Assembly: GCF_030553055.1 (NCBI RefSeq)
Contig: NZ_CP130713.1
Span: 6,014,001-6,078,000 of the forward strand
DNA length: 64,000 nucleotides
Origin: Streptomyces sp. XD-27
Lineage (GTDB): Bacteria; Actinomycetota; Actinomycetes; Streptomycetales; Streptomycetaceae
Reading direction: 5' to 3'
Below the pieces are notes generated by a model. The model had not been told where the DNA came from. It worked only from the letters and a program-made list of their open reading frames with translations, and did not search any database. The position numbers were made by a program, and so were the translations under genes. The stretch's first letter is position 1. Each line of letters opens with the position of its first letter. Of the stretch, positions 1,599 through 55,231 are shown one piece after another.

Positions 1599-1636
1599 CA
1601 AGAAGGCCCCGCCAACTGGCGGGGGCCTTCTTGGTG
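1599..1636 (+). terminator. Terminator after tRNA-Thr
   Basis: A GC-rich hairpin in which AAGAAGGCCCCGCC pairs with GGCGGGGGCCTTCTT, with a single-base bulge and a 5-nt loop. It starts about 9 nt after the tRNA. It also lies just beyond the convergent osaC stop, so it may terminate both transcripts. Confidence 0.85.
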
Positions 1637-1661
1637 TTCATGCCTCGGTGTTCATGCCTCG
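1634..1661. repeat. 14-bp tandem duplication spanning the osaC stop codon
   Basis: Two identical 14-bp units (1634-1647 and 1648-1661; GTGTTCATGCCTCG on the plus strand). The second unit contains the osaC stop codon (1652-1654, minus strand). The first unit repeats that sequence immediately downstream of the gene. Confidence 0.85.
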
Positions 1662-4282
1662 TGCGGCTGCGGCTGGGGGACGCGCATCGCCAGGATCGCC
1701 ATGTCGTCGGACGGCGGATCGGGAGCGAAGCGCTCGACGGCGCGCAGGACGCGCGCGGCCACCGCGCCCGCCGTCAGCCCTGTGCAGGTGGTCAGCACGT
1801 CCGCCAGGCCGTCGTCGCCGAGCATCCTGGCGCCCTCGCGGCGCTCCGTCACCCCGTCCGTGACACACAGCAGCACATCGCCCGGATCGAGCGTCACCGT
1901 CTGCTCGTACAGCTCCAGATCGTCCATCACACCCAGCAGCGGCTGCGGTTCCGCGGCCGCCTCGACACGGCCGTCCGGGCGCAGCCGCAGCGGCAGCGGA
2001 TGGCCGGCGCACACCACCTTGAGCAGCGCGCTGCCGTCGGCCTGCGGCCACAGCTCCCCGTACAGCAAGGTCAGGAAGCGGCTGCGCGCGCCCTCGTCGA
2101 GGATCGCCGCGTTGAGCCGCTCCAGGACGGCCGGGCCGCCGAAGCCCTCGCGGGCGAGCAGCCGCAGCGCGTGCCGGGCCAGGCCGGTGACGGCGGCCGC
2201 CTCGGGGCCCGTACCGCAGACGTCGCCGATGGCGAAGCCGTACGCGTCGTCGCGGATGGGGAACAGGTCGTAGAAGTCACCGCCGACCTCGTTGCCCTCG
2301 CCGGCCGCGCGGTAGATGACCTCGACCTCGACGCCGGGGACCTCGGGCAGCTCGGGCGGCAGCAGGCTGCGCTGGAGGGACTGGCTGATGGCCGTACGCT
2401 CCGAGTACAGCCGCGCGTTGTCCAGCGCGAGCGCGGCCCGGCGGGAGAGGTCCTCGGCCAGCTCCAGGATCTCCTGGCGGAAGTGCTCGTCGGCCGGCTT
2501 GCCGAGGGTGAGCATGCCAATGACGCGGTTGCGGGCCACCAGCGGGAGGACGACGGTCTCCCCGCCGACCGCGGAGGCCGTGGCCAGGGTGGCACCCGGG
2601 CCGGACGAAGGGCGGGCGGCGTCCCCGAGGTTGAGGCTGCGCAGGGTGGTGCGCAGCGCCGCGGCGTGCGCGGCGTCGCCGGGGGCCGACCAGACCCGGG
2701 CGCCGGGAGCGGGCACCGGCTCCGGCGGATCGACCTTCGCGAGCAGCGCCTTGAGCCCGTCGATGCGGTCCTCGTCCTCGTGCAGGACGTAACTCAGCTC
2801 GGGCTCGGACGACGGGTCGGCGATGGTGTAGACGGCGCACCAGGTGGCGAGGGTCGGCACGGTCATCTGCGCCATCAGAGCCAGCGTCTGGTCGCGGTCG
2901 AGCGTGCCGGCGAGCAGGTCGGACGCCTCGACGAGGAAGGACAGGGAGCCGCGGCGGAGCCGCTCCAACTCGGTGAGGCGGGCGGACTCCACGGCCAGCG
3001 CGATGCGGTCGGCGGCGAACTGGAGCCGCAGGGCCTCCTCGTTGCTGTAACGGCCGGGGGCTTCGGCGGCCACGCCGAGCGAACCCGTCAGCCGCCCCTC
3101 CACCTTCAGCGGGACCGTGACGACCGACCGCATGCCGGTGTTGGCGAGCAGCGGTACGGCTCCGGGGACGACGGCGAGGTCCTCATGGACGGCGGGCATC
3201 CGCGCCGAGCCGTAGCGTCCGGTGCCGGCCTCGACGGGGACGCGGGCGAAGCGCTGGCGGGCGGAGGGCAGCCCGGTCGAGGCGCGCACCTCCAGCTCCG
3301 TCTCGTCGTCGGTGGCAAGGAGCAGATAGGCCGAGTCCCCGTCGAGCATGTCGCGGGCGCGTTCGACGGTGCGCTGGAGGAGCCCGTCCAGGTCGTCAGG
3401 GGCGGGGGAGCCGATGAAGACCTCGAAGGCGTCGGTGGGCGCGCCGCGCTCGGGCGCGCTGGAGGCATCGGAGGAGGAGCCGCGCTGCGGGCTCTGCAGG
3501 ACCGCGCGCTCGTGCTCGCGGACCAGCAAGCAGACCGTGGACGGGTCGCCTTCGGTGTCCCGTACGCGTAGATGCGAGGCGTAGACCGGGATGACCCGGC
3601 CGTCGGCGCCGCGGACGCCGTAGGAGCCCTCCCAGCGGGAGAGCCGGAGCGCCTCGGCGACGCCCGTGCCGGTTCCCGGCGTGTGCGGCCAGGCGGCGAG
3701 GTCGGTGAGCGGCTTGCCGAGGATCTGCTCCGGCGCGTAGCCGAACAGGTCCTGTGCGTCGTCGTTCCAGGCGCTGACGGCGCCGTTGCGGTCGATCTGG
3801 ACGACGGCGACGCGGACCCGGGCGTCGGTGACGGGCAGCGCCTCGGAGGGCAGGGCCGGGCCCGCGGAGCGGGTGCCGGCCAGGCGGTCGGGGAAGTCGA
3901 GCTGGAACCACACCTGCTTGTGCGTGGCGCTGTACTCCACGCCCCAGCGGGAGGCGAGGGCGGCGCACAGCAGCAGCCCGCGGCCGCCTTCGCGGTCCGG
4001 GCTGCCGTAGTTGCGCCCCGCGTTCTCCAGCGGTAGCTCGCGCTCCGGATAGCGGTCGGCGACCTCGACGCGCACCCCGGTCTCGGCCCGGATGCAGCTG
4101 ACGTCGGCGGCGGTGCCCGCGTGGACGACGGCGTTGGTGACGAGCTCGCTCGTGAGGACGACGGCGTCGTCGACGACGTCGGTAAGGCCCCAGCCCTGGA
4201 GGGTGTCTCTGACGAAGGTACGGGCGGAGGCGACCGAGCGTCCCACTGGTTCGAATTTGGCGGCTGCCCGCGCGGTGATCAC
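1652..4282 (-). CDS. osaC: SpoIIE-type serine phosphatase with RsbW-like, PAS and GAF domains (OsaC)
   Basis: An 876-residue cytoplasmic regulator. Domains in order: an RsbW-like ATPase domain (about 1-130, with N-box SELVTNAVVHAG), a PAS domain (about 155-265), a GAF region (about 300-430), a second GAF-like region (about 440-610), and a PP2C/SpoIIE phosphatase (about 630-870). The phosphatase metal-binding acidic motifs are GGDFYD, GDVCGTG, VTDGVTER and PSDDMAIL. In S. coelicolor the orthologue at this position is OsaC, which modulates the stress sigma factor SigB after osmotic shock; that role is transferred by homology and position. GTG at 4282 is preferred because GAGGAG precedes it by a few bases, and ATG at 4294 is the alternative. 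It is divergent from osaA. A 14-bp duplication spans its stop codon. Confidence 0.88.
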   Translation of the reverse strand: MITARAAAKFEPVGRSVASARTFVRDTLQGWGLTDVVDDAVVLTSELVTNAVVHAGTAADVSCIRAETGVRVEVADRYPERELPLENAGRNYGSPDREGGRGLLLCAALASRWGVEYSATHKQVWFQLDFPDRLAGTRSAGPALPSEALPVTDARVRVAVVQIDRNGAVSAWNDDAQDLFGYAPEQILGKPLTDLAAWPHTPGTGTGVAEALRLSRWEGSYGVRGADGRVIPVYASHLRVRDTEGDPSTVCLLVREHERAVLQSPQRGSSSDASSAPERGAPTDAFEVFIGSPAPDDLDGLLQRTVERARDMLDGDSAYLLLATDDETELEVRASTGLPSARQRFARVPVEAGTGRYGSARMPAVHEDLAVVPGAVPLLANTGMRSVVTVPLKVEGRLTGSLGVAAEAPGRYSNEEALRLQFAADRIALAVESARLTELERLRRGSLSFLVEASDLLAGTLDRDQTLALMAQMTVPTLATWCAVYTIADPSSEPELSYVLHEDEDRIDGLKALLAKVDPPEPVPAPGARVWSAPGDAAHAAALRTTLRSLNLGDAARPSSGPGATLATASAVGGETVVLPLVARNRVIGMLTLGKPADEHFRQEILELAEDLSRRAALALDNARLYSERTAISQSLQRSLLPPELPEVPGVEVEVIYRAAGEGNEVGGDFYDLFPIRDDAYGFAIGDVCGTGPEAAAVTGLARHALRLLAREGFGGPAVLERLNAAILDEGARSRFLTLLYGELWPQADGSALLKVVCAGHPLPLRLRPDGRVEAAAEPQPLLGVMDDLELYEQTVTLDPGDVLLCVTDGVTERREGARMLGDDGLADVLTTCTGLTAGAVAARVLRAVERFAPDPPSDDMAILAMRVPQPQPHEA

Positions 4283-4633
4283 AGGTCTCCTCATCGGCCT
4301 CTCATTGCTCCCCGAGTCCTGTGCCCGTTTCCCAAGCCCTCGATTCGTCCGCCAGGCTAAACCGTCGACCCCGGCCGTGTGGAACGGAGTGGTGTGATTC
4401 GGGAGCAAAAATGCGGCCCGGCGGCCGGGCGCATACCCCCGTGGGGTCACGCATGGCCGCCGGGCCGAGGCCGTGGGCGAAGGACATGTGCTGCCCTCCA
4501 CGTCTCAACGAATTTTCGAGGATGTGGTTACGCTCCGATCAGCGACCACTACGGTGCCCCGGAGTGAAAGACTGGGAAAGCTCGAAGTAGAGAACCCGAC
4601 GAGGACGACGGTCGACCCTGCGGGAGGGACACG
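4283..4633. other. Divergent osaC-osaA intergenic region with nested inverted repeats
   Basis: A 351-bp gap between divergent starts. It contains a perfect 12-bp inverted repeat (CGGCCCGGCGGC at 4414-4425 and its complement at 4456-4467). Inside this lies a smaller palindrome, ACCCCCGTGGGGT (4434-4446). The structure could be a regulator site or a leader hairpin for either gene. I could not assign a promoter with confidence, and no further gene is visible. Confidence 0.55.
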
Positions 4634-10117
<5,484 letters not shown>

Positions 10118-10363: not shown

Positions 10364-10394
10364 GCCCATGCCGGGGCGAGGAGGACGGTCGGCC

Positions 10395-11214: not shown

Positions 11215-13989
11215 ATGGCCTCACGTACGTCCGGCAAGGGTTCCCAGGGCACTGCGGGCACCTCGAAGCAGCGCGCCGGAGGGGCCGCGGGTGCCGCCAA
11301 GAAGGCCCCGGCGAAGAAGGCGGCTGCCAAGAAGGCCGCGCCGCCCGCGAAGAAGAAGGCGCCCGCGAAGAAGGCGCCGCCCAAGCCCGCGCCGTCCCCC
11401 ACCAACGGCGTCTTTCGCGCGGCGCGTGCCGTATGGAGGGGCCTGGCGCGCGCCGTCGGCGCGATGTTCCGGGGCATAGGGCGCGGCGCGAAGGGGCTGG
11501 ACCCCGCGCATCGCAAGGACGGCGTGGCGCTGCTGCTGCTCGCGCTCGCGCTGATCGTCGCGGTCGGCACCTGGTCCCATCTGCGCGGGCCGGTCGGCGA
11601 CCTGGTGGAGGTGCTGGTCACCGGCGCGTTCGGCCGCCTCGATCTGCTCGTGCCGATACTGCTCGGCGCGATCGCCACCCGGCTGATCCTCCACCCCGAG
11701 CAGCCGGAGGCCAACGGACGGATCGTCATCGGGCTGTCCGCGCTGGTCATCGGGGTCCTCGGGCAGGTGCACGTCGGCTGCGGGGCGCCGCTGCGTAGCG
11801 ACACCGAGGCCATCCAGGACGCCGGCGGTCTCATCGGCTGGGCGGCGGCGAGCCCGCTGCTGTACGCGATGGGCGCGGTGCTGGCCGTACCGCTGCTGAT
11901 CCTGCTGACCCTCTTCGGACTGCTCGTGGTCACCGCCACCCCCGTCGCCGCCATCCCGCAGCGGCTGCGCTCGCTGGGCATCCGGCTGGGCCTGCTGCGG
12001 GACCACGGTGAGTACCTCGACCCGGTGGACGAGGAGGAGGCCGGGGAGTACGCCGACGAGTGGCGCGAGCAGCCCGCGCGGCGTCAGCGCCGGGCGTCCC
12101 GTACCGCCGCGAGCGGCCCCGAGCGGGCCGAGGATGAGGCGCTCGACAAGCGGCGCGGGCAGCGCCGCACCGGTCGCGTGGAGCCTCCCGCAGACCGCCC
12201 CATGGACGCCGTGGACGTGGCGGCCGCGGCCGCCGCCGCACTGGACGGCGCCGTCCTGCACGGTGTCCAGCCCTCACCGCTCGTCGCCGGCCTCAGCAGC
12301 GGCATCTCCGGCGACCGGGCGGCCGGGGTGCCGGGCGCGCGGCCCGCGGGCGGACCTCAGGGGCCCTCCGACGGGGAGCGGACGGTGACGGCCGTCCCGG
12401 AGCACGGGGAAGGGGCCCCGGAGCGCGGAGCGGTCGTCCCGGACCTCACCAAGCCCGCGCCCGAGCCCGCCCAGCCCCTGCCGCCGCGGGCCGAGCAGCT
12501 CCAGCTCGCCGGCGACATCACCTACGCCCTGCCCTCGCTGGACCTGCTGGAGCGCGGCGGCCCGGGCAAGTCCCGCAGCGCCGCGAACGACGCGGTCGTC
12601 GCCTCGCTGACGAACGTCTTCGCGGAGTTCAAGGTGGACGCCGCCGTCACCGGCTTCACCCGCGGGCCGACGGTCACCCGCTACGAGGTCGAGCTGGGCC
12701 CGGCCGTGAAGGTCGAGCGGATCACGGCGCTGACCAAGAACATCGCCTACGCCGTCGCCAGCCCCGATGTGCGGATCATCAGCCCCATCCCGGGCAAGTC
12801 CGCGGTCGGCATCGAGATCCCCAACAGCGACCGCGAGATGGTCAACCTGGGGGACGTGCTGCGGTCCGCGGAATCCGTCGGCGACGACCATCCGCTGCTC
12901 GTGGGTCTGGGCAAGGACGTCGAGGGCGGCTATGTCTCGGCGAACCTGGCGAAGATGCCGCACGTGCTGGTGGCCGGCGCCACCGGCTCCGGAAAGTCGT
13001 CCTGCATCAACTGCCTGATCACCTCCGTCATGGCCCGCGCGACACCGGACGACGTACGGATGGTGCTGGTCGACCCCAAGCGCGTCGAGCTGACCGCGTA
13101 CGAGGGCATCCCGCACCTGATCACGCCGATCATCACCAATCCCAAGCGCGCCGCCGAGGCCCTCCAGTGGGTCGTACGGGAGATGGACCTGCGCTACGAC
13201 GACCTGGCGGCGTTCGGGTTCCGGCACATCGACGACTTCAACGCCGCCGTCCGCGGGGGCAAGGTCAAGCTGCCCGAAGGCAGCGAGCGCGAGCTGCGGC
13301 CGTACCCGTACCTGCTGGTCATCGTGGACGAGCTGGCGGACCTGATGATGGTGGCCCCGCGCGACGTGGAGGACTCGATCGTCCGTATCACCCAGCTGGC
13401 CCGCGCGGCGGGCATCCACCTGGTGCTCGCCACCCAGCGGCCGTCGGTGGACGTGGTGACCGGTCTGATCAAGGCGAACGTGCCGTCCCGGCTCGCCTTC
13501 GCCACCTCCTCCCTCGCCGACAGCCGGGTGATCCTCGACCAGGCGGGCGCCGAGAAGCTGATCGGGAAGGGCGACAGCCTCTTCCTGCCGATGGGCGCGA
13601 ACAAGCCGGTCCGCATGCAGGGCGCGTTCGTCACCGAGGCGGAGGTCGCCGCGGTCGTCGAGCACTGCAAGAACCAGATGACGCCGGTCTTCCGGGACGA
13701 CGTGACGGTCGGGACGGCGAAGAAGAAGGAGATCGACGAGGAGATCGGCGACGACCTGGACCTCCTCTGCCAGGCCGCCGAGCTGGTGGTCTCCACCCAG
13801 TTCGGCTCGACCTCGATGCTCCAGCGCAAGCTGCGGGTGGGCTTCGCCAAGGCCGGGCGGCTGATGGACCTGATGGAGTCCCGCGGGATCGTCGGTCCCA
13901 GCGAGGGCTCCAAGGCCCGGGACGTTTTGGTAAAACCGGATGAATTGGATGGCGTGATCGCTGTGATCCGCGGGGAGGCTCACCCGTAG
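11215..13989 (+). CDS. ftsK: DNA translocase FtsK/SpoIIIE
   Basis: A 924-residue septal DNA pump. It begins with a Lys/Ala/Pro-rich basic tail, followed by several membrane segments (about 100-270), a variable acidic/basic linker, and the cytoplasmic motor. Walker A is GATGSGKSS (about 588-596) and Walker B is [10 protein letters not shown]. The C-terminal winged-helix gamma domain ([20 protein letters not shown]) reads orienting DNA sequences. In sporulating Streptomyces it moves chromosomes out of closing septa. ATG at 11215 is chosen because the product starts with the usual Lys-rich tail and matches the expected ~925 residues; no good ribosome site is visible there. A duplication of the last codons, including the stop, follows the gene. 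Confidence 0.95.
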
Positions 13990-14015
13990 CGCAGGGGAGA
14001 CTCACCCGTAAGGGA
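13972..14015. repeat. 22-bp tandem duplication spanning the ftsK stop codon
   Basis: GGGGAGGCTCACCCGTAG (13972-13989, the last five ftsK codons plus the stop) is repeated as GGGGAGACTCACCCGTAA (13994-14011) with a 22-bp period. Two mismatches in 18 bases separate the copies, and both carry a stop triplet. Confidence 0.85.
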
Positions 14016-28577: not shown

Positions 28578-29360
28578 ATGGATGTTTCCGGAGCAAGCGC
28601 CGCTGATGAGAACACCCGGCCGCCGGTGGTCATCAAGGCCACCGCGCGCCAACTGCTGGTGAAACTGGGCGCCGCAGGGCTGTCCCTGGACGCCGTCGCC
28701 CGTGACAGCGGCCTTGCCGTCGCCGACGTGGAAGCCGTCTTCCCGCACCGGGACGACCTGTTGACCGCGCTGGTCATCGACGCCTACAACGAGTCCGGCG
28801 CCGCGATGGAGCAGGCCGATCAGGCCGCCAGGGACGCCGGCGCGTCGGCGGGCGCGCGGTTCCTCGCGGTGACCCGCGCACTGCGGCAGTGGTCCTTCGA
28901 CAACCCCGCCGAGTTCACGCTCATCTACGGCTCGCCCGTTCCGGACTACCACGCCCCGCAGGACACGGTCCCGCCCGCCTCGCGCACCCCCGCGGTGCTG
29001 GCCGGCATTGTGCGGTCGGCGCTGGAGGCCGGTGAACTCACCCCGCCCCGGCGGGTGGTGCCCGGGCCGCCGCTGCTCCTGCCGGAGGCCGTGCAGCTCT
29101 TCGGCGGCGTGCCCGAGGCTCCGTTCTCGGACATCATCGAGCGCGGCATCGTGCTGTGGAGCAGTCTGGTCGGCCTCCTGGTGTTCCAGGTCTTCAGCCG
29201 CACCCACGACAGCGTCCGGGACGAGTCCGCGTTCTTCGACTACGCCATCGCCGTGGCGGCCGAGGGTATCGGACTCGTGGTGCCCTTGGGCGAGAACGCC
29301 GACCAGGGCGAGAACGCCGACCAGGGCGAGAACGCCGACCAGGGCGAGAACGCCGACTAG
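28578..29360 (+). CDS. TetR-family transcriptional regulator with repeated C-terminus
   Basis: A 260-residue repressor. The N-terminal TetR helix-turn-helix is visible at about 15-60 (ATARQLLVKLGAAGLSLDAV, then VEAVFPHRDDLLTALV). The C-terminal ligand domain (about 95-235) resembles the WHG type (FDNPAEFTLIYGSPVPDY). The last 24 residues are four exact GENAD(Q) repeats made by an 18-bp minisatellite ending in the stop codon, which looks like an expansion of the gene end rather than a folded part. It is divergent from the cyclase-like gene. Confidence 0.82.
   Translation: MDVSGASAADENTRPPVVIKATARQLLVKLGAAGLSLDAVARDSGLAVADVEAVFPHRDDLLTALVIDAYNESGAAMEQADQAARDAGASAGARFLAVTRALRQWSFDNPAEFTLIYGSPVPDYHAPQDTVPPASRTPAVLAGIVRSALEAGELTPPRRVVPGPPLLLPEAVQLFGGVPEAPFSDIIERGIVLWSSLVGLLVFQVFSRTHDSVRDESAFFDYAIAVAAEGIGLVVPLGENADQGENADQGENADQGENAD
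29289..29360 (+). repeat. Four-copy 18-bp minisatellite at the 3' end of the TetR gene
   Basis: GGCGAGAACGCCGACCAG is repeated four times without a gap (29289-29306, 29307-29324, 29325-29342, 29343-29360). The last copy differs by one base, CAG to TAG, and that change is the stop codon. Confidence 0.95.
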
Positions 29361-30700: not shown

Positions 30701-31948
30701 GTGGCCACGAGCGAAGCGACGCCCCCCGACGAGACGGCACCCGCGCAGACGGCGCCCGGACACGGCATCCCGGGACAGCCGGTGCCGGAGGGTGCGGCGG
30801 AGCCGGCCGGGCCGGGGGCGCAGGCGGCGCGGATGCCCGCCTGGCTGCCGCGTGCCATGGTGCTGGCACTCGCCCTGGTGGCCTGCTTCCGCTTCGCCAC
30901 CTGGGCGTTCGACCAGCTCACCGGGCTGCTGCTCAACATCCTGATCGCGTTCTTCCTGGCGCTCGCGGTCGAGCCCGCGGTGGACCGGATGGCCGCGCGG
31001 GGCGTGCGACGGGGAGTGGCCACCGCTCTCGTCTTCCTCGGCATCCTCATCGCCGTCGCGGGGTTCTTCACGCTGCTCGGGTCGATGCTCGCGGGCCAGA
31101 TCGTCACCATGGTCGACGACTTCCCCAAGTACCTGGACCAGGTGATCCGCTGGATCAACGCGACGTTCCACACGGAGCTGTCGCGCGTGGAGATCCAGGA
31201 CAGCCTGCTGCACTCCGAGTGGCTGCGGAAGTACGTCAAGGACAGCGCCGACAACGTCCTGGACGTGTCCGCGGCCGTCCTCGGCGGGCTCTTCCAGGCC
31301 CTGACGGTGATGCTCTTCGCGTTCTACTTCGCCGCCGACGGCCCCCGGCTGCGCCGCAACCTGTGCTCCATGCTGCCGCCGCACCGGCAGGCCGAGGTGC
31401 TGCGCGCCTGGGAGATCGCGGTCGCCAAGACCGGCGGCTATCTCTACTCACGCGGCCTCATGGCGCTGATCTCGGGCGTGGCGCACTACATCCTGCTGGA
31501 GAGCCTGGGCGTGCCCTACGCCCCGGCGCTGGCCGTCTGGGTGGGGCTGATCTCGCAGTTCATCCCGACGATCGGCACCTACATGGCGGGCGCGCTGCCG
31601 ATGCTGATCGCGTTCACCGTCGACCCCTGGTACGCGGTGTGGGTGTTCGGCTTCGTGGTGGTCTACCAGCAGTTCGAGAACTATCTGCTCCAGCCCAGGA
31701 TCACCGCCAGGACCGTGGACATCCATCCGGCCGTCGCCTTCGGCTCGGTGATCGCGGGGACCGCGCTGCTGGGCGCGGTGGGAGCCTTGATCGCCATCCC
31801 GGCGACCGCCACGTTGCAGGCGTTCCTCGGGGCGTACATCAAGCGCTACGACGTCACCGACGATCCGCGGGTCCACGGGCGGCCGCGGCGGGGGCCCCGG
31901 CCGTCGGCGCTGGCGCGGGCCCGCGGCGCGCTGGTGCGGCGCGGTTGA
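30701..31948 (+). CDS. AI-2E family transporter-like membrane protein
   Basis: A 415-residue protein of the AI-2E/PerM (UPF0118) family. A disordered Pro/Ala/Glu-rich start of about 45 residues is followed by paired N-terminal helices, a soluble central segment (about 130-190), and further helices including LGVPYAPALAVWVGLISQFIP and a PRITARTVDIHPAVAFGSVI segment typical of the family. The substrate is not known; the family name comes from one E. coli member. GTG at 30701 starts 25 bp after the DUF3046 gene. The stop codon lies in the first unit of a 20-bp tandem repeat that leads into the recA promoter. Confidence 0.85.
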   Translation: MATSEATPPDETAPAQTAPGHGIPGQPVPEGAAEPAGPGAQAARMPAWLPRAMVLALALVACFRFATWAFDQLTGLLLNILIAFFLALAVEPAVDRMAARGVRRGVATALVFLGILIAVAGFFTLLGSMLAGQIVTMVDDFPKYLDQVIRWINATFHTELSRVEIQDSLLHSEWLRKYVKDSADNVLDVSAAVLGGLFQALTVMLFAFYFAADGPRLRRNLCSMLPPHRQAEVLRAWEIAVAKTGGYLYSRGLMALISGVAHYILLESLGVPYAPALAVWVGLISQFIPTIGTYMAGALPMLIAFTVDPWYAVWVFGFVVVYQQFENYLLQPRITARTVDIHPAVAFGSVIAGTALLGAVGALIAIPATATLQAFLGAYIKRYDVTDDPRVHGRPRRGPRPSALARARGALVRRG

Positions 31949-31995
31949 CACGTACGCGGCGCGATTGAGACGTATGCGGCGCGGTTGACACGAAA
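31936..31995. repeat. Three 20-bp tandem repeats running from the AI-2E gene stop to the recA promoter
   Basis: The units are 31936-31955 (GCGGCGCGGTTGACACGTAC), 31956-31975 and 31976-31995. Unit 1 holds the stop codon of the transporter gene (31946-31948). Units 1 and 3 contain TTGACA, and unit 2 has ATTGAG instead. Confidence 0.93.
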
Positions 31996-43432: not shown

Positions 43433-43547
43433 GGAGTCAGGGCCTGACCGGCCGGTGGCTCAGTGCCTGACCGGCCGATATCTCAGGGCTTGGCCAACCG
43501 GTATCTCAGGGGTTGGCCGACTGGTATCTCAGGGCTTGGCCGACCGG
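43433..43547. repeat. Five-copy 23-bp tandem repeat at the TAXI gene stop codon
   Basis: The units start at 43433, 43456, 43479, 43502 and 43525, each 23 bp. The last three are nearly identical (TATCTCAGGGCTTGGCC...), the first two more diverged. The unit at 43525 contains the stop codon (43529-43531) and last codons of the minus-strand TAXI gene. The others lie beyond the stop, between convergent genes. Confidence 0.9.
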
Positions 43548-44524
43548 TAGTAGCGCGCGGCGCCCTCGTGCAGGTCCAGCGGGTCGGTGAACACGGCGGT
43601 CCGCAGGTCCACCTTCTGCGCCGCGTGCACCACCTCGCCGATCCGGTCCCGGCTGCGGATGACCGTACGGGTGAGCCCCTCCGTCAGCTCGGCGTCCGCC
43701 CGCTCGGTCGTGACCAGCAGGTTCGCCACCGCGATGGTCTTGGTCGGCCGGCCGCGCTGCGCCTTCGGATAGGTGTCCGGCGGCATCACCGCGGACCGGT
43801 AGTAGCGGGTCGCCTCGCCCTGCCGGTGCAGTGCCTCGGTCAGGTCGCCGAGCTGGACCAGGCGGATCGGGACGTCGTCGGCCAGGTTCTCCAAGGCCGT
43901 GGTGGGCAGCCCGCCCGACCAGAAGAAGGCGTCCAGCTTCCCCTCGCGCAGCAGCCCCGTCATGCGGTCGATGCCGACCCGGCGCGCGTCGATGTCCGTG
44001 ACGAAGTCCAGCCCGGCGGCCGCCAGCAGCCGCCGGGTGATCAGCTGCACGCCCGACCGGTCCTCGCCGACCCCGACCCGCCGGTCCTTGAGGTCCCGCG
44101 CCGAGCGCACCGGGGAGTCCGCGGGGACCACCAGCTGCATGTAGTCGTCGTACAGCCGCGCGCAGGCCCGCAGCCGCTCGGCGCCGTGGCCGCCCTCCGC
44201 GCTGTACGTGGCCACGGAGTCGGCGGTGGCGATGGCGAACGACGCGTCCCCGCGCACCAGCCGCTGGATGTTGTCCACCGAGCCCTGGCTGTGCAGCAGC
44301 CGGACGTCCACGTCCGGCAGGTCCCGGCGCAGGTCGGTGCGCAGCAGCTTGCCGTACTTCTCGTACACCCCGGTGGGCACGCCCGTGGACAGCACGACCT
44401 TGCCGCTGGGCGACGAGCCGCCGCGCAGCGGCAGCAGCCACCACAGCAGCAGCGCGAGGGCCGCGGCGGCGGCCACGGACCGCAGGACGCGGCGTCTGCG
44501 CGGGCGGGCGAGGGCATCGGGCAC
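43529..44524 (-). CDS. TAXI-family TRAP transporter solute-binding protein
   Basis: A 331-residue exported or membrane-anchored binding protein. An Arg-rich start is followed by one hydrophobic segment (VLRSVAAAAALALLLWWLLP) and a TAXI domain (LSTGVPTGVYEKYGKLL; LHSQGSVDNIQRLVRGDASF; FFWSGGLPTTALENLA). No TRAP permease gene is adjacent, so it may act as a ligand-sensing partner of the convergent two-component system rather than in transport; this is inference. GTG at 44524 is favoured by AGGAT eight bases upstream. Confidence 0.83.
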   Translation of the reverse strand: MPDALARPRRRRVLRSVAAAAALALLLWWLLPLRGGSSPSGKVVLSTGVPTGVYEKYGKLLRTDLRRDLPDVDVRLLHSQGSVDNIQRLVRGDASFAIATADSVATYSAEGGHGAERLRACARLYDDYMQLVVPADSPVRSARDLKDRRVGVGEDRSGVQLITRRLLAAAGLDFVTDIDARRVGIDRMTGLLREGKLDAFFWSGGLPTTALENLADDVPIRLVQLGDLTEALHRQGEATRYYRSAVMPPDTYPKAQRGRPTKTIAVANLLVTTERADAELTEGLTRTVIRSRDRIGEVVHAAQKVDLRTAVFTDPLDLHEGAARYYRSAKP

Positions 44525-46643: not shown

Positions 46644-46683
46644 CGCCCGGCGGCCGGGCGCCCGCCTTGTTAGGGTTCCGATC

Positions 46684-47391: not shown

Positions 47392-47413
47392 CCGCCCGGC
47401 CGGGATCCGGTCG

Positions 47414-47461
47414 AAGCCGTGGACGGCCGCGGAGCATCGGCTCCGCGGCCGTCCACGGCTT
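47414..47461. terminator. Bidirectional terminator with a perfect 21-bp stem
   Basis: 47414-47434 (AAGCCGTGGACGGCCGCGGAG) pairs perfectly with 47441-47461 around a 6-nt loop. It lies between the convergent genes ending at 47391 and 47539, and can serve both strands. Confidence 0.93.
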
Positions 47462-47538
47462 TCAGGCGCCGCCTTGAGGGGACCGCCACGGGTACCTCCC
47501 GGACGAAGTCCGGGGCGGGTCCTTGACGGGGCGGCTCC

Positions 47539-47847: not shown

Positions 47848-47940
47848 GAGCCACCTTCCCTCATCACGGAACGTACGTACCGAAAACGTACGTCACGCCG
47901 CATACCCCACATTCATCGGGTTATGGGCGCCCTCGCGGCA

Positions 47941-48228
47941 TCAGGTGCGGGCGCCCTCGCCGGCCTCGCTGTCGGCCGCCTCGTCCGCGCCCTGCTGCTT
48001 CGGAATGTCGACGCCGTCGCCCGCATCGGTCGTCCCGACCGGTTCCTCCTCCCCTGTCGGGCCGGTGTCTTCGGCGGCCGTGTCCTCGGTGGCCGCCGAC
48101 GGTACTTCCTCCGTCGCCGGGTCCGCGGGTTCCTCGGCCGAAGCCGCCGCGACCGCGGCCTCCTCGGTCGGAGCCTCCACGGTCAGAGCCTCGGACTTAC
48201 GGCGGCGAAACATTGAAAAAACGCCCAT
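47941..48228 (-). CDS. Small acidic hypothetical protein
   Basis: A 95-residue protein with a basic start (MGVFSMFRRRKSEAL) and a long acidic, Glu/Ala/Thr-rich disordered tail. Streptomyces homologues are often labelled gliding motility protein without evidence. GGAG lies 5 bp before ATG 48228, supporting expression. It is divergent from miaA (187-bp gap). Function is unknown. Confidence 0.7.
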   Translation of the reverse strand: MGVFSMFRRRKSEALTVEAPTEEAAVAAASAEEPADPATEEVPSAATEDTAAEDTGPTGEEEPVGTTDAGDGVDIPKQQGADEAADSEAGEGART

Positions 48229-48415
48229 AACTACTCCATATACCTTACTCGTGTGGGCGACATTCCGTGCCGCCGTCGGAGCGCCTCCTCGCGCCGCTGC
48301 CGGACCCCGTCCGCCGCACCGGCCCTCGGCGCTCTCTGTCGGGGCAACGACCCCGCACCCCGCATGTCACGTCGCCCGTTCGAGGGGCACTTTCGATGTT
48401 TGCGAAACTGGTCCC

Positions 48416-49353
48416 GTGAACAGCGCAGTTCCCGCACCCCGAGTCATCGCCGTCGTCGGCCCCACCGCCGCCGGCAAGTCCGACCTCGGCGTCGCCCTCG
48501 CCCGCCACCTCGGCGGCGAGGTCATCAACGCCGACTCCATGCAGCTCTACCGCGGCATGGACATCGGCACCGCCAAGCTGACGGAAGAGGAACGGCAGGG
48601 GGTGCCCCACCGACTGCTCGACATCTGGGACGTCACCCAGACGGCGAGCGTCGCCGAATACCAGCGGCTGGCCCGCGCCGAGATCGACCGGCTGCTCGCC
48701 GAAGGCCGCACCCCCGTCCTGGTCGGCGGCTCCGGCCTGTACGTACGCGGAGCCATCGACGCCCTGGAGTTCCCCGGCACCGATCCTGCCGTCCGGGCCC
48801 GGCTGGAGGCCGAGCTCGCCGAACACGGCCCCGGCGCGCTGCACGCCCGGCTCGCCGCCGCCGACCCGGAGGCCGCCCGCGCGATCCTGGCCGGCAACGG
48901 CCGCCGGATCGTGCGCGCCCTGGAGGTCATCGAGATCACCGGCCGCCCTTTCACCGCCAACCTGCCGGGTCACGAGGCCGTCTACGACACGCTCCAGATC
49001 GGCGTGGACGTCGAGCGGCCCGAACTGGACGAGCGGATCACCCTGCGCGTGGACCGGATGTGGGAGGCCGGACTGGTCGACGAGGTGCGCCGGCTCGAAG
49101 CCGAAGGCCTGCGCTCCGGCCGTACCGCCTCCCGCGCGCTGGGCTACCAGCAGGTGCTCGCGGCGCTCGCGGGGAGTGCGACGAGGACGAGGCCCGCGCC
49201 GAGACCGTGCGCGCCACCAAGCGCTTCGCGCGCCGTCAGGACTCCTGGTTCCGCCGCGATCCGCGCGTCCACTGGCTCAGTGGCGCCGCCGAGAACCAGG
49301 GGGAACTCGCGGCAAAGGCGCTGATGTTGGTCGAACGAGCGGTCACAGCCTGA
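48416..49353 (+). pseudogene. miaA: tRNA dimethylallyltransferase MiaA, frameshifted near its 3' end
   Basis: Transfers the dimethylallyl group to A37 of tRNAs reading UNN codons. Features are the P-loop VVGPTAAGKSDLGV, NADSMQLYRGMDIGT, LVGGSGLYVRGAID and RALGYQQVLAALAG. After ALAG at 49171-49174 the frame shifts. The conserved end (ECDEDEARAETVRATKRFAR, RRQDSWFRRD, to 49353) is in the next frame. One added G in GGGG at 49171-49174 restores 312 residues, the family length. As written the frame runs out to 49324 in unrelated sequence and loses the tRNA-binding C-terminus. The start is GTG at 48416. A homopolymer miscall is likeliest. Confidence 0.88.
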
Positions 49354-49460
49354 TCACGTGATTGCATCGGGACGCCTCGTGTGTCAATAGCGCCCCTTGG
49401 TCCGTGCCATCATCGACCTCGATCGTGCCGTGGTGTCTGGAGTTGGGAGGGCGTGTGGCG

Positions 49461-49988
49461 ATGGAGGCCGGCCCTCGCGACTCGTCGCAGCAGCCGCTGA
49501 ACGATCCGGAGACACTCATTCCGGACGGGCTGGATGTACCAGGCGATCCAGATGCGCTGGATGCACCGCGCGATCCCGACGTGCTGGATGTACCGGGTGA
49601 TCCGGACGGCGCTGAGGTCGCCGACGGCCCCGAGGGCGCGGCGGGCTCCGGAGAGTCGTTCCGCGACCTGCGCCCCCCGCGTCGTCTGCGGATCTGGCAG
49701 ATCGCCCCGATCGTGGGCCTGGCCATCCTCGGCTCCCTGATGTTCGCCTTCCCGCTCGCCTTCGAGTTCGGCGACGGCGGCGCCGTCGTCGCCATGCTCG
49801 GCCTGCTGCTCAGCTGCTGCGCGGCGGGCTGGGGGCTGATGGCGGCGCGGCGGGTCGGCTACACCTGGCCGGGACTGCCGCCGCGCGGCTCCGGCCGCCG
49901 CCCGGACTGGCGGTTCGTCGCCCTGTACGTCGCGGTCGTCGGCCTCATGGCCGCCCTCGCGATCCTGCGGGTCGCGCGACTGCGCTGA
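49461..49988 (+). CDS. Membrane protein with nonapeptide repeats
   Basis: A 175-residue protein. The cytoplasmic N-terminal ~75 residues are acidic and contain three tandem nonapeptides of the form LDVPGDPDx. Three membrane helices follow (IWQIAPIVGLAILGSLMFAF; AVVAMLGLLLSCCAAGWGLM; FVALYVAVVGLMAALAILRV). ATG at 49461 lies nine bases after GGGAGGG; GTG at 49455 is the alternative. A hairpin at 49988-50013 may end the transcript. Function is unknown. Confidence 0.72.
   Translation: MEAGPRDSSQQPLNDPETLIPDGLDVPGDPDALDAPRDPDVLDVPGDPDGAEVADGPEGAAGSGESFRDLRPPRRLRIWQIAPIVGLAILGSLMFAFPLAFEFGDGGAVVAMLGLLLSCCAAGWGLMAARRVGYTWPGLPPRGSGRRPDWRFVALYVAVVGLMAALAILRVARLR
49530..49610 (+). repeat. Three 27-bp in-frame tandem repeats
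   Basis: The units start at 49530, 49557 and 49584, each beginning CTGGATG and encoding a nine-residue Asp/Pro-rich unit. They preserve the reading frame of the membrane protein gene. Confidence 0.9.
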
Positions 49989-50081
49989 CCGCTCCCGCGT
50001 CGGCGGGGGCGGTACGGCCGCCTTATCAGCGCGGCCGACCGGGGCGCCGCCCCGCACGCGGCGGACCCGTAAGATCGAGGC

Positions 50082-50957
50082 GTGAGCACCACGCGACCCC
50101 TGTCCTTCCTCAAGGGCCACGGCACCGAGAACGACTTCGTGATCGTCCCCGACCCGGACGGTGCCCTGGACCTGACCCCCGCCGACGTCACCCGCCTCTG
50201 CGATCGCCGGGTCGGCATCGGCGGCGACGGCCTGCTGCGCGTCGTGCGGTCCGCGGCGCATCCCGAGGCGCGGGCGATGGCGGACGAGGCCGAGTGGTTC
50301 ATGGACTACCGGAACGCCGACGGCTCCGCGGTCGAGATGTGCGGCAACGGCGTCCGGGTCTTCGCCCGCTATCTGCGGCATGCCGGGCATGTGGCGTACG
50401 GCGACCTCGCCGTCGCCACCCGGTCAGGTGTGAAGCGCGTGCACATCGCCAAGGACGGCGACGTCACCGTCGCCATGGGCCGGGCCCGACTGCCCGACGG
50501 ACAGGTCACCGTGACCGTCGGCGGCCGCAGTTGGCCCGCCCGCAACGTGAACATGGGCAACCCGCACGCCGTCGCGTTCGTCGAGGACCTGGACCACGCG
50601 GGCGACCTGTTCACCGAGCCCCCGTACCGCCCCTCCGACGTCTACCCCGACGGCGTCAACATCGAGTTCGTCGTGGACCGCGGCCCCCGCCATGTCGCCA
50701 TGCGCGTCCACGAGCGGGGCGTGGGCGAGACCCGCTCCTGCGGCACCGGCGCCTGTGCCGTCGCGGTGGCCACCGCGCGCCGGGACGGCGTCGACCCCGC
50801 GGTCACCGGCGTCCCCGCCGTGTACACCGTGGACGTGCCCGGCGGCAGCCTGGTGATCAGTGAGCTGCCGGACGGGACGGTGGAGATGACCGGCCCCGCA
50901 GTGATCGTCGCCGAGGGCACCATCGCCCCCGAGTGGTGGGCCGCGTCGGCCGTCTGA
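50082..50957 (+). CDS. dapF: Diaminopimelate epimerase
   Basis: A 291-residue enzyme that interconverts LL- and meso-diaminopimelate for lysine synthesis (LL-DAP enters Streptomyces peptidoglycan). The two catalytic Cys are Cys87 in MCGNGVRVFARY and Cys220 in ETRSCGTGACA. KGHGTENDF and GNPHAVAFV are further family motifs. GTG at 50082 starts at the conserved N-terminus. It follows the membrane protein gene by 93 bp. Confidence 0.97.
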   Translation: MSTTRPLSFLKGHGTENDFVIVPDPDGALDLTPADVTRLCDRRVGIGGDGLLRVVRSAAHPEARAMADEAEWFMDYRNADGSAVEMCGNGVRVFARYLRHAGHVAYGDLAVATRSGVKRVHIAKDGDVTVAMGRARLPDGQVTVTVGGRSWPARNVNMGNPHAVAFVEDLDHAGDLFTEPPYRPSDVYPDGVNIEFVVDRGPRHVAMRVHERGVGETRSCGTGACAVAVATARRDGVDPAVTGVPAVYTVDVPGGSLVISELPDGTVEMTGPAVIVAEGTIAPEWWAASAV

Positions 50958-51214
50958 CGCCCCACCCGACGGCGCCCCGGCGCCCGACCGCGGGCGTCCC
51001 ATGCTCAACGGCAGCCTCGCTGCGCCCAAGCGCGCTCGGCCAACACTCAAGCGGGACTCTGCCCATAACCGAGTTTCGGGAGAAATAACTCGCTCGAATG
51101 GGTGATCCGTTTCACTCTCGGCGAGAGCCGGTCGGCCGTGCGTGATGGGCTCGATAGCATCAAGCACCGGCCCCGGGGGCGAGCCCACGCCGGTCGATCT
51201 TGCCGGAGGTGCCC

Positions 51215-53353
51215 ATGAGCGCAGAGGCCACGGACGACGCCGCTCTTGGCCGCAGGCGCGGCCTCCCCCGAATCGATCTGCTGAACCTCCGCCGGTTCGG
51301 CAGGACCGCCTTACTGGGCCCCGCCTCCCGCGACCGGCTGCCCGACGCGATCGAGCACATCGCCAAGGTCCATCGCGGCCATCATCCCGGCGCCGACCTG
51401 GACGTGCTCCGCCAGGCATACGTACTCGCCGAGTCCTCGCACCGCGGGCAGATGCGCAAGAGCGGCGAGCCGTACATCACCCACCCGCTCGCCGTCACCC
51501 TGATCCTGGCCGAACTGGGCGCCGAGACCACCACGTTGACCGCGTCGCTGCTCCACGACACCGTCGAGGACACCGATGTGACCCTCGATCAGGTGGGGGA
51601 GCAGTTCGGCGAGGAGGTCCGCTATCTCGTCGACGGCGTCACCAAGTTGGAGAAGGTCGACTACGGGGCGGCCGCCGAGCCCGAGACGTTCCGCAAGATG
51701 CTCGTCGCCACCGGCAACGACGTCCGCGTGATGTCCATCAAACTCGCCGACCGGCTGCACAACATGCGCACGCTCGGCGTGATGCGGCCCGAGAAGCAGG
51801 CCCGGATCGCCAAGGTCACCCGCGACGTCCTGATCCCGCTCGCCGAACGGCTGGGGGTCCAGGCCCTCAAGACCGAACTGGAGGACCTGGTCTTCGCCAT
51901 CCTCCATCCCGAGGAGTACGCCCGCACCCGCGAACTGCTGATGGAGCACGCGGGCCGCCCCGACCCGCTCGCCCGGGTCGCCGAGGACGTACGCGCCGTG
52001 CTGCACGAGGCGGACATCGCCGCCGAAGTCGCGGTCCGGCCCCGGCACTTCGTCTCCGTCCACCGGGTGCGGAGGAAACGGGGCGAGCTGACCGGGTTCG
52101 ACCTCGGCCGCCTCCTGGTGCAGGTCGCGGAGGACGCCGACTGCTACGCGGTCCTCGGCGAGCTGCACACCTGCTTCACCCCCGTCATCACGGAGTTCAA
52201 GGACTTCATCGCGGTCCCGAAGTTCAACCTGTACCAGTCGCTGCACACCGCGGTGGCGAGCCGCGACGGCCACGTCGCCGAAGTCCTCATCCGTACGCAG
52301 CAGATGCACCGGGTCGCCGAGGCGGGCGTCGTGGCCCTCGGCAATCCGTACGCACCGCCCGCGGGCGACCACGGCGCCGCGGCCCGCCCCGACGGTGAGC
52401 GCGCCGACCCGACCCGCCCCGGCTGGCTCTCCCGGCTCCTCGACTGGCAGCGCGCCACCCCCGACCCCGACGCCTTCTGGAGCTCGCTGCGCGACGATCT
52501 CGCGCAGGACCGGGAGATCACCGTCTTCCGGGCCGACGGTGGCACGCTGGGGCTGCCCGCCGGTGCCAGTTGCGTCGACGCCGCGTACGCCCAGCACGGC
52601 GAGGCCGCGCACGCCTGCATCGGGGCGCGGGTCAACGGCCGCCTCGCGGCCCTGGGCACCGTGCTGCACGACGGCGACACCCTGCAACTGCTGATGGCCC
52701 GCGACGCCGCCGCCTCCAGGCCCTCACCGGACTGGCTGGACCACGCCCGCACGCCCGCCGCGCGGATCGCCATCAGCCGCTGGCTGGCCGCCCACCCGGC
52801 GCTCCCCGAAGGCCCCGCCGCGGACGCCCGCGGCCTGGGCCGCCCGGCGAGCCCGGGCCCGACCGGCGACGGCCGCAGGGAGGCGGGCGTCACCGCCGAC
52901 CTGCCGGGCGCGTCGGTACGGCTCGCCGGATGCTGCACCCCGGTGCCGCCCGACGCGGTCACCGGATTCGCCGTGCGCGGCGGGGCCGTCACCGTCCATC
53001 GCGCGGAGTGTCCGGCGGTGGCCCGCATGACCGCGGCCGGCCGGAGCCCGGTCGGCGTCCACTGGCACGCCCCGGAGAGCGACCGGGCGGCGGCCGACTA
53101 CCGCGTCACGCTGTGCGCCGAGGCGTTCAGCAGACCCCACCTGCTCGCCGACCTCACCGAGGCGATCGCGGCGGAGGGCGTGGCCGTCGTCGCCGCCGCC
53201 GTGGAACCGCCGCACGAGCAGCGGGTCCGGCACACTTACACCCTCCAGCTGCCGGACCCGGCCAGTCTCCCGACGCTGATGCGCGCGATGCGCCGGGTGC
53301 CCGGGGTGTACGACGTCGCCCGCCGACAGCTGGCGGAAGCCGCCCGGACCTGA
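51215..53353 (+). CDS. rshA: RelA/SpoT homologue (RshA)
   Basis: A 712-residue (p)ppGpp enzyme. The HD hydrolase is intact (SLLHDTVEDTDVT; KLADRLHNMRTLG). The synthetase region has CYAVLGELHTCFTPV, FKDFIAVPKFNLYQSLHT and EVLIRTQQMH; the substrate loop (RHFVSVHRVRRKRGEL) departs from the usual KxxSIxxKM form, so synthetase activity is less certain. TGS, zinc-finger (GCCTPVPPD) and ACT domains follow. It is distinct from the main RelA of the genus. ATG at 51215 has GGAGGT five bases upstream. Its stop codon starts a 36-bp tandem array. Confidence 0.9.
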   Translation: MSAEATDDAALGRRRGLPRIDLLNLRRFGRTALLGPASRDRLPDAIEHIAKVHRGHHPGADLDVLRQAYVLAESSHRGQMRKSGEPYITHPLAVTLILAELGAETTTLTASLLHDTVEDTDVTLDQVGEQFGEEVRYLVDGVTKLEKVDYGAAAEPETFRKMLVATGNDVRVMSIKLADRLHNMRTLGVMRPEKQARIAKVTRDVLIPLAERLGVQALKTELEDLVFAILHPEEYARTRELLMEHAGRPDPLARVAEDVRAVLHEADIAAEVAVRPRHFVSVHRVRRKRGELTGFDLGRLLVQVAEDADCYAVLGELHTCFTPVITEFKDFIAVPKFNLYQSLHTAVASRDGHVAEVLIRTQQMHRVAEAGVVALGNPYAPPAGDHGAAARPDGERADPTRPGWLSRLLDWQRATPDPDAFWSSLRDDLAQDREITVFRADGGTLGLPAGASCVDAAYAQHGEAAHACIGARVNGRLAALGTVLHDGDTLQLLMARDAAASRPSPDWLDHARTPAARIAISRWLAAHPALPEGPAADARGLGRPASPGPTGDGRREAGVTADLPGASVRLAGCCTPVPPDAVTGFAVRGGAVTVHRAECPAVARMTAAGRSPVGVHWHAPESDRAAADYRVTLCAEAFSRPHLLADLTEAIAAEGVAVVAAAVEPPHEQRVRHTYTLQLPDPASLPTLMRAMRRVPGVYDVARRQLAEAART

Positions 53354-53527
53354 GCAACGGGCCACGTGCGCGGGGTCCTGTCGACCCTGAGCAACGGGCC
53401 ATGTGCCCGGGTCGTGCCGACCCGAGTCCCCGGGCCACGTGCCCGGGGTCCTGCGGACCCGAGCCCCGGGCTGCCTATCCGGGGTCTCCCGGACTGAGCT
53501 CCGGCCGCCTGGCCGAGGTCCCGGGGA
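53347..53527. repeat. Five-copy 36-bp tandem repeat starting at the rshA stop codon
   Basis: Units align on GACC/GACT at 53347, 53383, 53419, 53456 and 53492 (36-37 bp period). The first contains the last codon and stop of rshA. GAGCAACGGGCCA is identical in the first two units; later ones diverge. The remainder of the 308-bp gap to 53661 shows no gene or terminator I can support. Confidence 0.88.
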
Positions 53528-53661
53528 CGGCGTCCGCGGGATCCGGCCGGGAGCGGCCCGGCGGACGGCGACGGGGCCGCCTGTCGCCTGCCCGCCCCCG
53601 ATCGGGTGGACTCCGGTCGCGACACCCCGCGCCCGTGACCTGGTGCTGGTACCGGTAGCCC

Positions 53662-55200
53662 ATGCCGCACACCTCCCTCCGCCGCCGCACCGTCCGCCGC
53701 CGGGCCGCCCTGGTGGCCGCCGTCCTGGCTCTCGCCGCCGCCGCGGAGCCGCCGGGGCCGGCCGGCCCCCAGGGCATCGGCGACCGGCTGTATCCGCAGC
53801 TCGGCAACCCCGGGTACGACGTCGCCGCGTACGACATCGCCTTGCAGTACCACGGCAACCGCCGGCCGCTGGACGCCGTGACCACTGTCGTCGCCGGCGC
53901 CACCGACACCCTCGACCGGTTCAACCTCGACTTCACCCACGGCGCCGTACGGTCCGTCGAGGTCGACGGCAGGCCGGCGCGGTACGCCCAGGCCGGAGAG
54001 GACCTGGTGATCACCCCGGCGGTCACCGTCCCCGAGGGGCAGCCGTTCAAGGTCGTCGTGCGTCACACCAGCGACCCGCGCGGCAGGGGCGGCGGGTGGA
54101 TCCGTACCCGCGACGGGCTCGTCATGGCCAACCAGGCCAGCGCCGCCCACCGGGTCTTCCCCTCCAACGACCACCCCTCGGACAAGGCCCACTTCACCTT
54201 CCACGTCACCGCGCCGAAGGACCTCACGGTCGTCGCGAACGGACTGCCCACCGGACAGACCCGCGACGGGGCCCGCGTCCGCTGGGACTACGCCGTCGCC
54301 CACCCCATGGCCACGGAACTCGCCCAGGTCGGCATCGGCCGCTTCGCCATCCTGCGGCGCCCCGGCCCGCACGGGCTCACCCTGCGGGACGTGGTGCCCG
54401 CGGGAGACCGCCGCCGCCTCACGAAATGGCTGGCCAAAGGCCCGGAGCAGATCGCGTGGATGGAGCGGAAGGTCGGCCCGTACCCGTTCGAGACCTACGG
54501 TGTGCTCATCGCGGACGCGAGCACCGGCTTCGAGCTGGAGACCCAGACGCTCTCCCTCTTTGAAAGAGGACTGTTCACCGCGGCGGGCACACCCGCCTGG
54601 TTCGTGGAATCGATCATGATGCACGAACTGGCGCACCAGTGGTTCGGCAACAGCGTGAGCCCGCGTACCTGGTCCGACCTGTGGCTCAACGAAGGCCACG
54701 CCACGTGGTACGAGGCGCTGTACGCCGCCGAACGCGGCAAGCTGGCCCTCGACAAGCGGATGCGGTACGCGTACGCCCACTCCGACATGTGGCGCGCCCA
54801 GGGCGGCCCGCCCGCCGCGCCCACGGCCGCGGTCCCCGGCAACCCGATCGGCATCTTCCGCCCGGTCGTCTACGACGGCAGTGCCCTGGTCCTCTACGCC
54901 CTGCGGCAGGAGATCGGCCGGGCCGCGTTCGAGCGGCTGGAGCGCGCCTGGGTCCAGCGCCACCAGGACGGTGTGGCGGCCACCGACGACTTCGTCCGGC
55001 TCGCCTCCGCCGTGGCCGGCCGCGACCTGACCGGATTCCTGCGCCCCTGGCTGTACGGGAAGAAGACCCCGCCCATGCCCGGACACCCGGACTGGAAGCG
55101 CGCCCAGCCCGGCAAGCCTGTCAAGGGCGGCCCCGGAGCGGCGGGCGCCCACGGGGCCCGCGGCGCGCGGGGTGCCAAGAGCGCCGTGAAGCCCGGTTAG
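53662..55200 (+). CDS. Secreted M1-family metallopeptidase (aminopeptidase)
   Basis: A 512-residue exported peptidase. An Arg-rich signal peptide (RRRTVRRRAALVAAVLALAA) precedes an M1 N-terminal beta domain and the gluzincin centre. The zinc site is complete: HELAHQ (His321, Glu322, His325) and Glu344 in NEGHATW, 18 residues later. The exopeptidase motif GxMEN is replaced by ELETQ, as in some bacterial members. The C-terminal domain is shorter than in classical aminopeptidase N. The tail is Gly/Ala/Arg-rich. It ends in a 26-bp duplication that spans the stop codon. Confidence 0.88.
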   Translation: MPHTSLRRRTVRRRAALVAAVLALAAAAEPPGPAGPQGIGDRLYPQLGNPGYDVAAYDIALQYHGNRRPLDAVTTVVAGATDTLDRFNLDFTHGAVRSVEVDGRPARYAQAGEDLVITPAVTVPEGQPFKVVVRHTSDPRGRGGGWIRTRDGLVMANQASAAHRVFPSNDHPSDKAHFTFHVTAPKDLTVVANGLPTGQTRDGARVRWDYAVAHPMATELAQVGIGRFAILRRPGPHGLTLRDVVPAGDRRRLTKWLAKGPEQIAWMERKVGPYPFETYGVLIADASTGFELETQTLSLFERGLFTAAGTPAWFVESIMMHELAHQWFGNSVSPRTWSDLWLNEGHATWYEALYAAERGKLALDKRMRYAYAHSDMWRAQGGPPAAPTAAVPGNPIGIFRPVVYDGSALVLYALRQEIGRAAFERLERAWVQRHQDGVAATDDFVRLASAVAGRDLTGFLRPWLYGKKTPPMPGHPDWKRAQPGKPVKGGPGAAGAHGARGARGAKSAVKPG

Positions 55201-55231
55201 CGGGTAGCGCCGTGAAGCCCGGTGAGCGGGG
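55180..55231. repeat. 26-bp tandem duplication spanning the M1 peptidase stop codon
   Basis: 55180-55205 (containing the stop at 55198-55200) is repeated at 55206-55231 with three mismatches; both begin AGCGCCGTGAAGCCCGGT. A more diverged third copy is visible at about 55250-55275. Confidence 0.9.

Follow-up and report, generated by a model that had tools for sequence, protein, structure and literature searches.

Tandem duplications behind stop codons in Streptomyces sp. XD-27 and their likely neutral origin

Bacterial and archaeal genomes carry several kinds of repeats that resemble the subject of this work, which is a set of short tandem repeats at the stop codons of seven genes in a 64,000-nucleotide stretch of Streptomyces sp. 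XD-27 (NZ_CP130713.1, positions 6,014,001 to 6,078,000; the window). A survey of prokaryotic satellites (PMC6749651) covers head-to-tail units of 10–200 nt and tabulates Streptomyces coelicolor and other actinobacteria, but requires at least four copies; the sections of it that were available link such repeats neither to stop codons nor to the 3′ ends of genes, ‘stop codon’ not having been specifically searched there. The repeats of archaeal Borg elements (PMC9879509) are, in the part of that report at hand, likewise fast-evolving, recently formed and of independent origins, with units that are multiples of three, all of them inside open reading frames (ORFs) and 14–38% between ORFs; unlike the window arrays, their copies are perfect, enriched in A and located on extrachromosomal elements. 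In mycobacteria, the variable-number tandem repeats (VNTRs) built from mycobacterial interspersed repetitive units (MIRUs) occupy the space from a stop to the following start, and the gap from rnc to fpg1 measures 279–358 bp in the tuberculosis complex and a few bp in other mycobacteria, according to the accessible part of the source (PMC2734929). There, MIRUs are scattered at 41 places, whereas each unit described here is, as far as tested, confined to its own locus. Finally, a review of 3′ untranslated region (3′ UTR) evolution describes a loss of conservation around the stop and 3′ UTRs that differ in sequence and length between close species, but the word ‘duplication’ is absent from its main text. 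In the open-access literature within our reach we found no description that links tandem duplications to stop codons; Borg repeats and 3′ UTR turnover come close.

The window arrays have the structure of bacterial minisatellites, with head-to-tail copies of units of at least 10 bp, and arrays differ between species in presence, unit and copy number. The first-pass annotation had placed them at the stops of osaC, ftsK, a TetR-type gene, an AI-2E transporter gene, a TAXI/NMT1-like gene, rshA and an M1 peptidase gene. All seven are present within a few bases of the positions given, as judged by Tandem Repeats Finder (TRF) and by the sequence, and the gene families of the seven loci match Pfam. 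Six of them have a common anatomy, in which the last codons and the stop lie in the first copy and extra copies follow downstream. We consider it likely that these arrays are independent, locus-private tandem duplications of a kind that is frequent in Streptomyces noncoding DNA, tolerated behind the stop and essentially neutral, and that they are no regulatory or stop-moving device. Stop-proximal repeats in Streptomyces would then call for no functional interpretation and might be useful as strain markers, and the duplication of a gene’s own end would be a concrete source of species-to-species 3′ UTR turnover in bacteria.

Enrichment, anatomy and history of arrays at stops

We sampled 100 stretches of 20 kb, spaced roughly 75 kb apart, from the 7.55-Mb genome and added the window, for a total of 2.06 Mb with 1,704 stops. 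Arrays were defined by a TRF score of at least 50, a period of 10–60 and a match of at least 80%, thresholds of our own choosing. Genes were called with our own codon-usage caller, which is blind to RNA genes and recovered 30 of the 30 stops examined in Escherichia coli (the first part of the stop list). Expectations for the spanning of stops and starts come from 200 circular shifts of the arrays.

Among 648 arrays, 76 span a stop compared to 28.5 after shifting (highest of the 200 shifts, 41). The excess persists when the window is excluded (70 compared to 27.9, highest 44) and when a match of at least 90% is required (28 compared to 9.2), and start codons are avoided (18 spanned, 31.1 after shifting). 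A TRF-free pair test, in which the last 40 nt of a gene are compared with up to 90 nt downstream (ungapped match score of at least 11, 900 randomly drawn pairs per kind, swapped partners as the control), finds a match between the coding tail and the downstream DNA in 5.2% of pairs as opposed to 0.5% of swapped ones (5.2% and 0.6% for all 932 stop pairs); the corresponding values are 1.1% and 0.3% for start regions and 1.6% and 0.7% for gene interiors. The enrichment over shifted positions and gene interiors that the first-pass annotation had proposed to look for is present in this genome. At a TRF score of at least 50, 6 of 47 stops are spanned in the window and 72 of 1,657 elsewhere in the sample (P = 0.016), so that the window is somewhat richer in spanned stops than the genome. 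Markov-shuffled intergenic DNA yields 0.019 arrays per kb and the real sequence 0.798, which rules out a chance product of GC-rich composition. Stop codon usage is alike in array-bearing genes and others (TGA in 85/116 and 723/999, respectively). Genes with a spanned stop have a slightly higher GC content at third codon positions (GC3; 0.942, n = 66, compared to 0.922, n = 1049; p = 0.0001). Arrays of all kinds are somewhat denser at 2–5 Mb than toward the chromosome ends, a mild central excess.

Of 78 stop/array pairs, 70 have the stop within the first copy, where random phase would predict 31.5; the idea that such duplications usually move stops is therefore not supported. Unit lengths of the spanning pairs ignore the reading frame (28/19/31 by length modulo three), and 303 of 338 wholly coding arrays, counted in a 1.66-Mb sample of the genome, have units that are multiples of three. 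With the stop in the first copy and a frame-blind unit, the protein is normally unchanged whatever the length of the duplication. A tandem duplication can be viewed as a pure insertion behind the first copy: if that copy includes the stop, the protein would stay intact and the duplication would be kept, after which the copies would expand and decay, the 3′ tail would lengthen and, in growing, displace the terminator or the next promoter. In the other eight pairs the stop is in a later copy, seven of them with a unit not divisible by three. These eight stops could have been moved by a frameshifting duplication, and some may be gene-call errors, one of them belonging to a weak gene at 47941.

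We placed the insertion point where the first copy ends and counted per exposed base in gaps of 120–2000 bp, leaving out 58 of 659 stops whose gap possibly holds a missed gene or transfer RNA (tRNA). In 30-nt bins counted from the stop, the density is 2.05 and 2.27 insertion points per kb in the first two bins and 0.54–1.00 beyond. Among the 96 arrays that are wholly intergenic and not at stops, 54 have a unit length divisible by three, some of which probably lie in genes missed by the caller; we therefore repeated the check with periods not divisible by three, which gives 1.46 and 1.21 per kb in the first two bins and 0.40–0.65 thereafter. For the same periods, array centres upstream of starts reach 0.0–0.5 per kb in divergent and 0.0–1.1 in codirectional gaps. 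Overall, the excess at stops over other noncoding DNA is 2–3 fold. That any noncoding DNA is duplicated equally could be read from the pair test, which is similar for stops and gap middles (5.2% and 6.7%), but the endpoint density per exposed base is higher after stops and, by our reasoning, the fairer measure, because the gap-middle design offers several times more sites for a first copy. As the endpoints are distributed roughly evenly across the first 60 nt or so after the stop, the stop codon itself is not the target.

The window arrays are also private to their lineage. In five relatives (87–89% DNA identity in two marker genes), the corresponding regions contain reciprocal best matches for six of the seven genes and no orthologue of the TetR-type gene. 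For the six arrays, the window unit is absent near the orthologous stop in all 30 comparisons, including one in which the stop is doubtful because the TAXI orthologue (G005) was called short (228/331 amino acids). Other arrays can occupy the same stops: in G018, the ftsK stop carries a 17 bp x2.1 duplication and the AI-2E stop a 23 bp x3.2 array, each peculiar to that relative, and in G007 arrays lie next to the M1 stop. Together, the absences and the differing arrays rule out ancient fixed repeats and bear out the first-pass view of a local, recurrent, lineage-specific process.

We extended the comparison to the best 80 of 545 matches for loci around rshA, all but one titled Streptomyces and, being orthologous, not independent of each other. 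In this set, 30 arrays span stops compared to 14.7 expected (highest 25). Of 45 loci with a TAXI orthologue, 4 carry other arrays at its stop (units of 15, 26, 27 and 40 bp), which by eye copy the conserved final codons. Other arrays occur at the rshA stop in 4/80 loci, at the stop orthologous to 46183 in 5/73 and at that orthologous to 43403 in 3/43; none of 77 loci has an array spanning the M1 stop. Nor do the window units form one repeat family, as had been noted from their differing sequences: five of the seven arrays have no match elsewhere in the 2.06 Mb, rshA has one weak match and the TetR array 32 weak ones, four of which were inspected and taken as low complexity. One dispersed family, of the MIRU or the repetitive extragenic palindrome/bacterial interspersed mosaic element (REP/BIME) type, is ruled out as far as 2.06 of 7.55 Mb shows.

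Tolerance and competing explanations

Conservation behind stops was evaluated in 127 orthologous gap pairs between the window and the five relatives. Only 2% of the first 20 nt after stops are alignable in convergent gaps and 11% in codirectional ones. The codirectional share climbs to 69% by 140–179 nt and drops again beyond 200 nt; in convergent gaps it is 20–31% at 20–99 nt and zero at 100–119 nt (200 positions), and in divergent gaps 31–44% within 140 nt of starts. Conservation in the window gaps is lost right after the stop, then, as described for differential 3′ UTR evolution, and this supports the first-pass proposal that bases beyond a stop are free to change. Such tolerance is a sufficient reason for a duplication zone behind the stop.

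Several observations nevertheless weigh against neutral tolerance as the whole account. Conservation alone does not predict array density: near the starts of divergent gaps 31–44% is alignable, in convergent gaps 20–31% and in some far bins nothing, yet arrays are rare there. The window’s own arrays slightly depress its conservation, and insertion points in the 80-locus set peak at about 30–90 nt. In addition, two other Streptomyces samples, G013 (4 spanned stops compared to 3.5) and BHT-5-2 (3 compared to 2.2), have no stop-specific excess, so that the association with stops varies by species.

Because array density does not closely track conservation, there is room for a higher duplication rate near stops. 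Under this possibility, which we regard as tentative and on balance unlikely, the transcribed but untranslated stretch behind the stop would be a mutational hot zone that breaks or slips more often, through R-loops or polymerase pausing before termination, beyond what tolerance allows. It would account for a density 2–3 fold above the rest of the gap, for an array coverage in convergent gaps of 200–350 bp of 12.5% within 100 nt of the stop compared to 0.9% mid-gap (31 gaps, the middle being only 1,591 bp), and for 0.0–0.5 arrays per kb upstream of divergent starts compared to 1.2–1.5 after stops; the higher GC3 of genes with spanning arrays (0.942 compared to 0.922) points the same way. But there is hardly any conservation in the first 20 nt after stops, so that tolerance gives a similar shape, and codirectional upstream DNA reaches 0.3–1.1 per kb at more than 30 nt from the start.

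Selection of the arrays as tandem hairpins, terminators or back-up stop codons is very improbable. There are inverted repeats inside the rshA and TAXI units and a further stop-like triplet in several copies, and single units are slightly more stable when folded than matched controls (−11.0 compared to −9.8 kcal/mol, with 42% of controls more stable), but arrays are also GC-richer (0.761 compared to 0.722). The 70 nt behind the stop fold with equal energy whether or not an array is present (means −30.8 and −30.6, p = 0.55) and long stems are no commoner with them (6% compared to 12% for stems of at least 9, 16% compared to 20% for at least 7), which leaves hairpins or terminators unsupported as a cause. 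Since unit length is independent of the frame, there is no preference for in-frame back-up stops, and the unit lengths modulo three rule them out. That the arrays are C-terminal in-frame protein repeats that happen to end at a stop can be dismissed almost entirely, as it holds for the 18-bp TetR array, with its stop in the last copy, but not for the other six, which have it in the first.

Arrays in other genomes and the origin of the duplications

The density of arrays that lie mostly in intergenic DNA varies widely between samples, several of which are plasmids and some small. It is 0.80 per kb in this genome, 0.62 in the 80 loci, 0.52 in G026 from the same order, 0.42 in a Streptomyces clavuligerus plasmid, 0.40 in G013, 0.36 in BHT-5-2 and 0.19 in a Mycolicibacterium plasmid (3 in 15 kb). 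No intergenic arrays were found in E. coli (37.6 kb), Shinella (43.0 kb, GC 66%), Paracoccus (10.2 kb), Thermus (3.9 kb), a Rhodococcus plasmid (24.1 kb) or Sinorhizobium pSymB (8.3 kb). At a laxer threshold the density is 0.84 per kb in 25 of the 101 sequences sampled from this genome, 0.07 in Shinella and 0.05 in E. coli. Noncoding arrays are denser here (0.80 per kb) than in the other Streptomyces samples (0.36–0.62).

The noncoding tandem-duplication load of the Streptomyces samples thus differs more than tenfold from that of the E. coli and Shinella samples, a contrast that allows the parts played by Ku end joining and by the lack of MutS to be tested. Ku is present in this genome, G013, G026 and the BHT-5-2 record and was not found in the Shinella record; for E. 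coli it was not reported, the control run naming only Bacillus subtilis. MutS is the reverse, being present in the Shinella record and the E. coli control and not found in this genome, G013, G026 or the BHT-5-2 record (for Shinella and BHT-5-2 the search covered one record each), so that the effects of the two are confounded; the Rhodococcus plasmid, moreover, had no arrays. Among actinobacteria, a Ku match was lacking in 4 of 30 genomes sampled from the class.

The first duplication at a site may arise through slippage between short direct repeats or through end joining and fill-in. Across 33 young, clean two-copy duplications touching noncoding DNA (4.92 Mb), junctional homology is bimodal, with 20 cases at 0–1 bp (26.2 expected), 7 at 5 bp or more (0.3 expected) and a mean of 2.21 compared to 0.83 expected; an earlier, smaller set of 13 clean cases had a mean of 1.31 compared to 0.85. 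A strong microhomology signal in our first set was partly inflated by decayed third copies. Perhaps duplications arise in two ways, by slippage and by a route that needs no pre-existing repeats. A bolder proposal, speculative and rather improbable in our estimate, is that in MutS-less, Ku-bearing actinomycetes staggered breaks followed by end joining with fill-in write short tandem duplications, chiefly in the transcribed untranslated stretch after the stop, and that noncoding DNA is gained and 3′ UTRs are lengthened in large part in this way, the stop sometimes being moved.

From array density and allowed divergence, we roughly estimate one duplication per 100 or so substitutions in noncoding DNA. 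The accessible part of a Streptomyces mutation-accumulation study reports 147 substitutions and 9 indels of 1–4 bp in 12 wild-type lines, with repeated sequences excluded (PMC11109965); at our estimated rate, the lack of such a duplication among 147 substitutions is no contradiction.

As a separate observation, a 2.8-Mb Streptomyces record labelled as a plasmid (NZ_CP081497.1, L244–L249) encodes Ku and a near full-length FtsK relative (97% covered, 75% identity), and may be partly chromosomal.

The individual loci of the window

On the reverse strand, the osaC array (1633..1661; 14 bp x2.1, 100% TRF match, copies in register) contains the stop at 1652-1654. A terminator-like hairpin (1600..1632) lies between it and a convergent forward-strand tRNA-Thr with anticodon GGT (1518-1591), and the two together leave only a short free stretch behind the osaC stop. 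By eye, the five relatives also have a similar hairpin behind the osaC stop, and all five lack the array. The ftsK pair (13972..14015, forward; stop 13987-13989) is the weakest of the seven cases, with two imperfect 22-bp copies identical at 18/22 positions by eye and no TRF row at a score of at least 30.

The grouping of all seven arrays into one class held for six. The exception is the TetR-type gene, whose array (29288..29360, forward; 18 bp x4) is in-frame, coding and C-terminal, with the stop (29358-29360) in the last copy. The AI-2E transporter array (31936..31995, forward; 20 bp x2.8, approximately three copies) has its stop at 31946-31948, and the TAXI/NMT1-like array (43433..43549, reverse; 23 bp x4.9, approximately five copies) runs from the last codons downstream, with the stop at 43529-43531.

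At rshA, a RelA/SpoT-type gene, 36-bp units extend from the stop (53351-53353) downstream (53347..53527, forward), with 3.5 copies by TRF and more by eye. In L156, visual comparison places extra copies between the rshA stop and a downstream stretch shared with its close relative L155, which lacks the copies. The M1 peptidase array (55180..55275, forward; stop 55198-55200) comprises 26 bp x2.4 and decayed copies to about 55275. Here the window carries, farther downstream, a copy of the Val-Lys-Pro-Gly-stop ending that related species conserve, and by eye GTGCGACCATC follows the M1 stop at +16, +17, +25 and +39 in four relatives, at +76 in G007 and at +90 in the window. Arrays add 3′ sequence and push conserved downstream elements away, in line with the earlier suggestion that they seed new 3′ sequence.

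One further array, unlisted in the first-pass annotation (47928..47980, reverse; 25 bp x2.2), spans the called stop 47941(−), of which the gene call is weak. Beside osaC, 4634-10117 encodes a hybrid histidine kinase with ten HAMP stretches and GAF, kinase and response-regulator domains, the HAMP part of which is itself a 276 bp x10 tandem array; we take this kinase to resemble OsaA.
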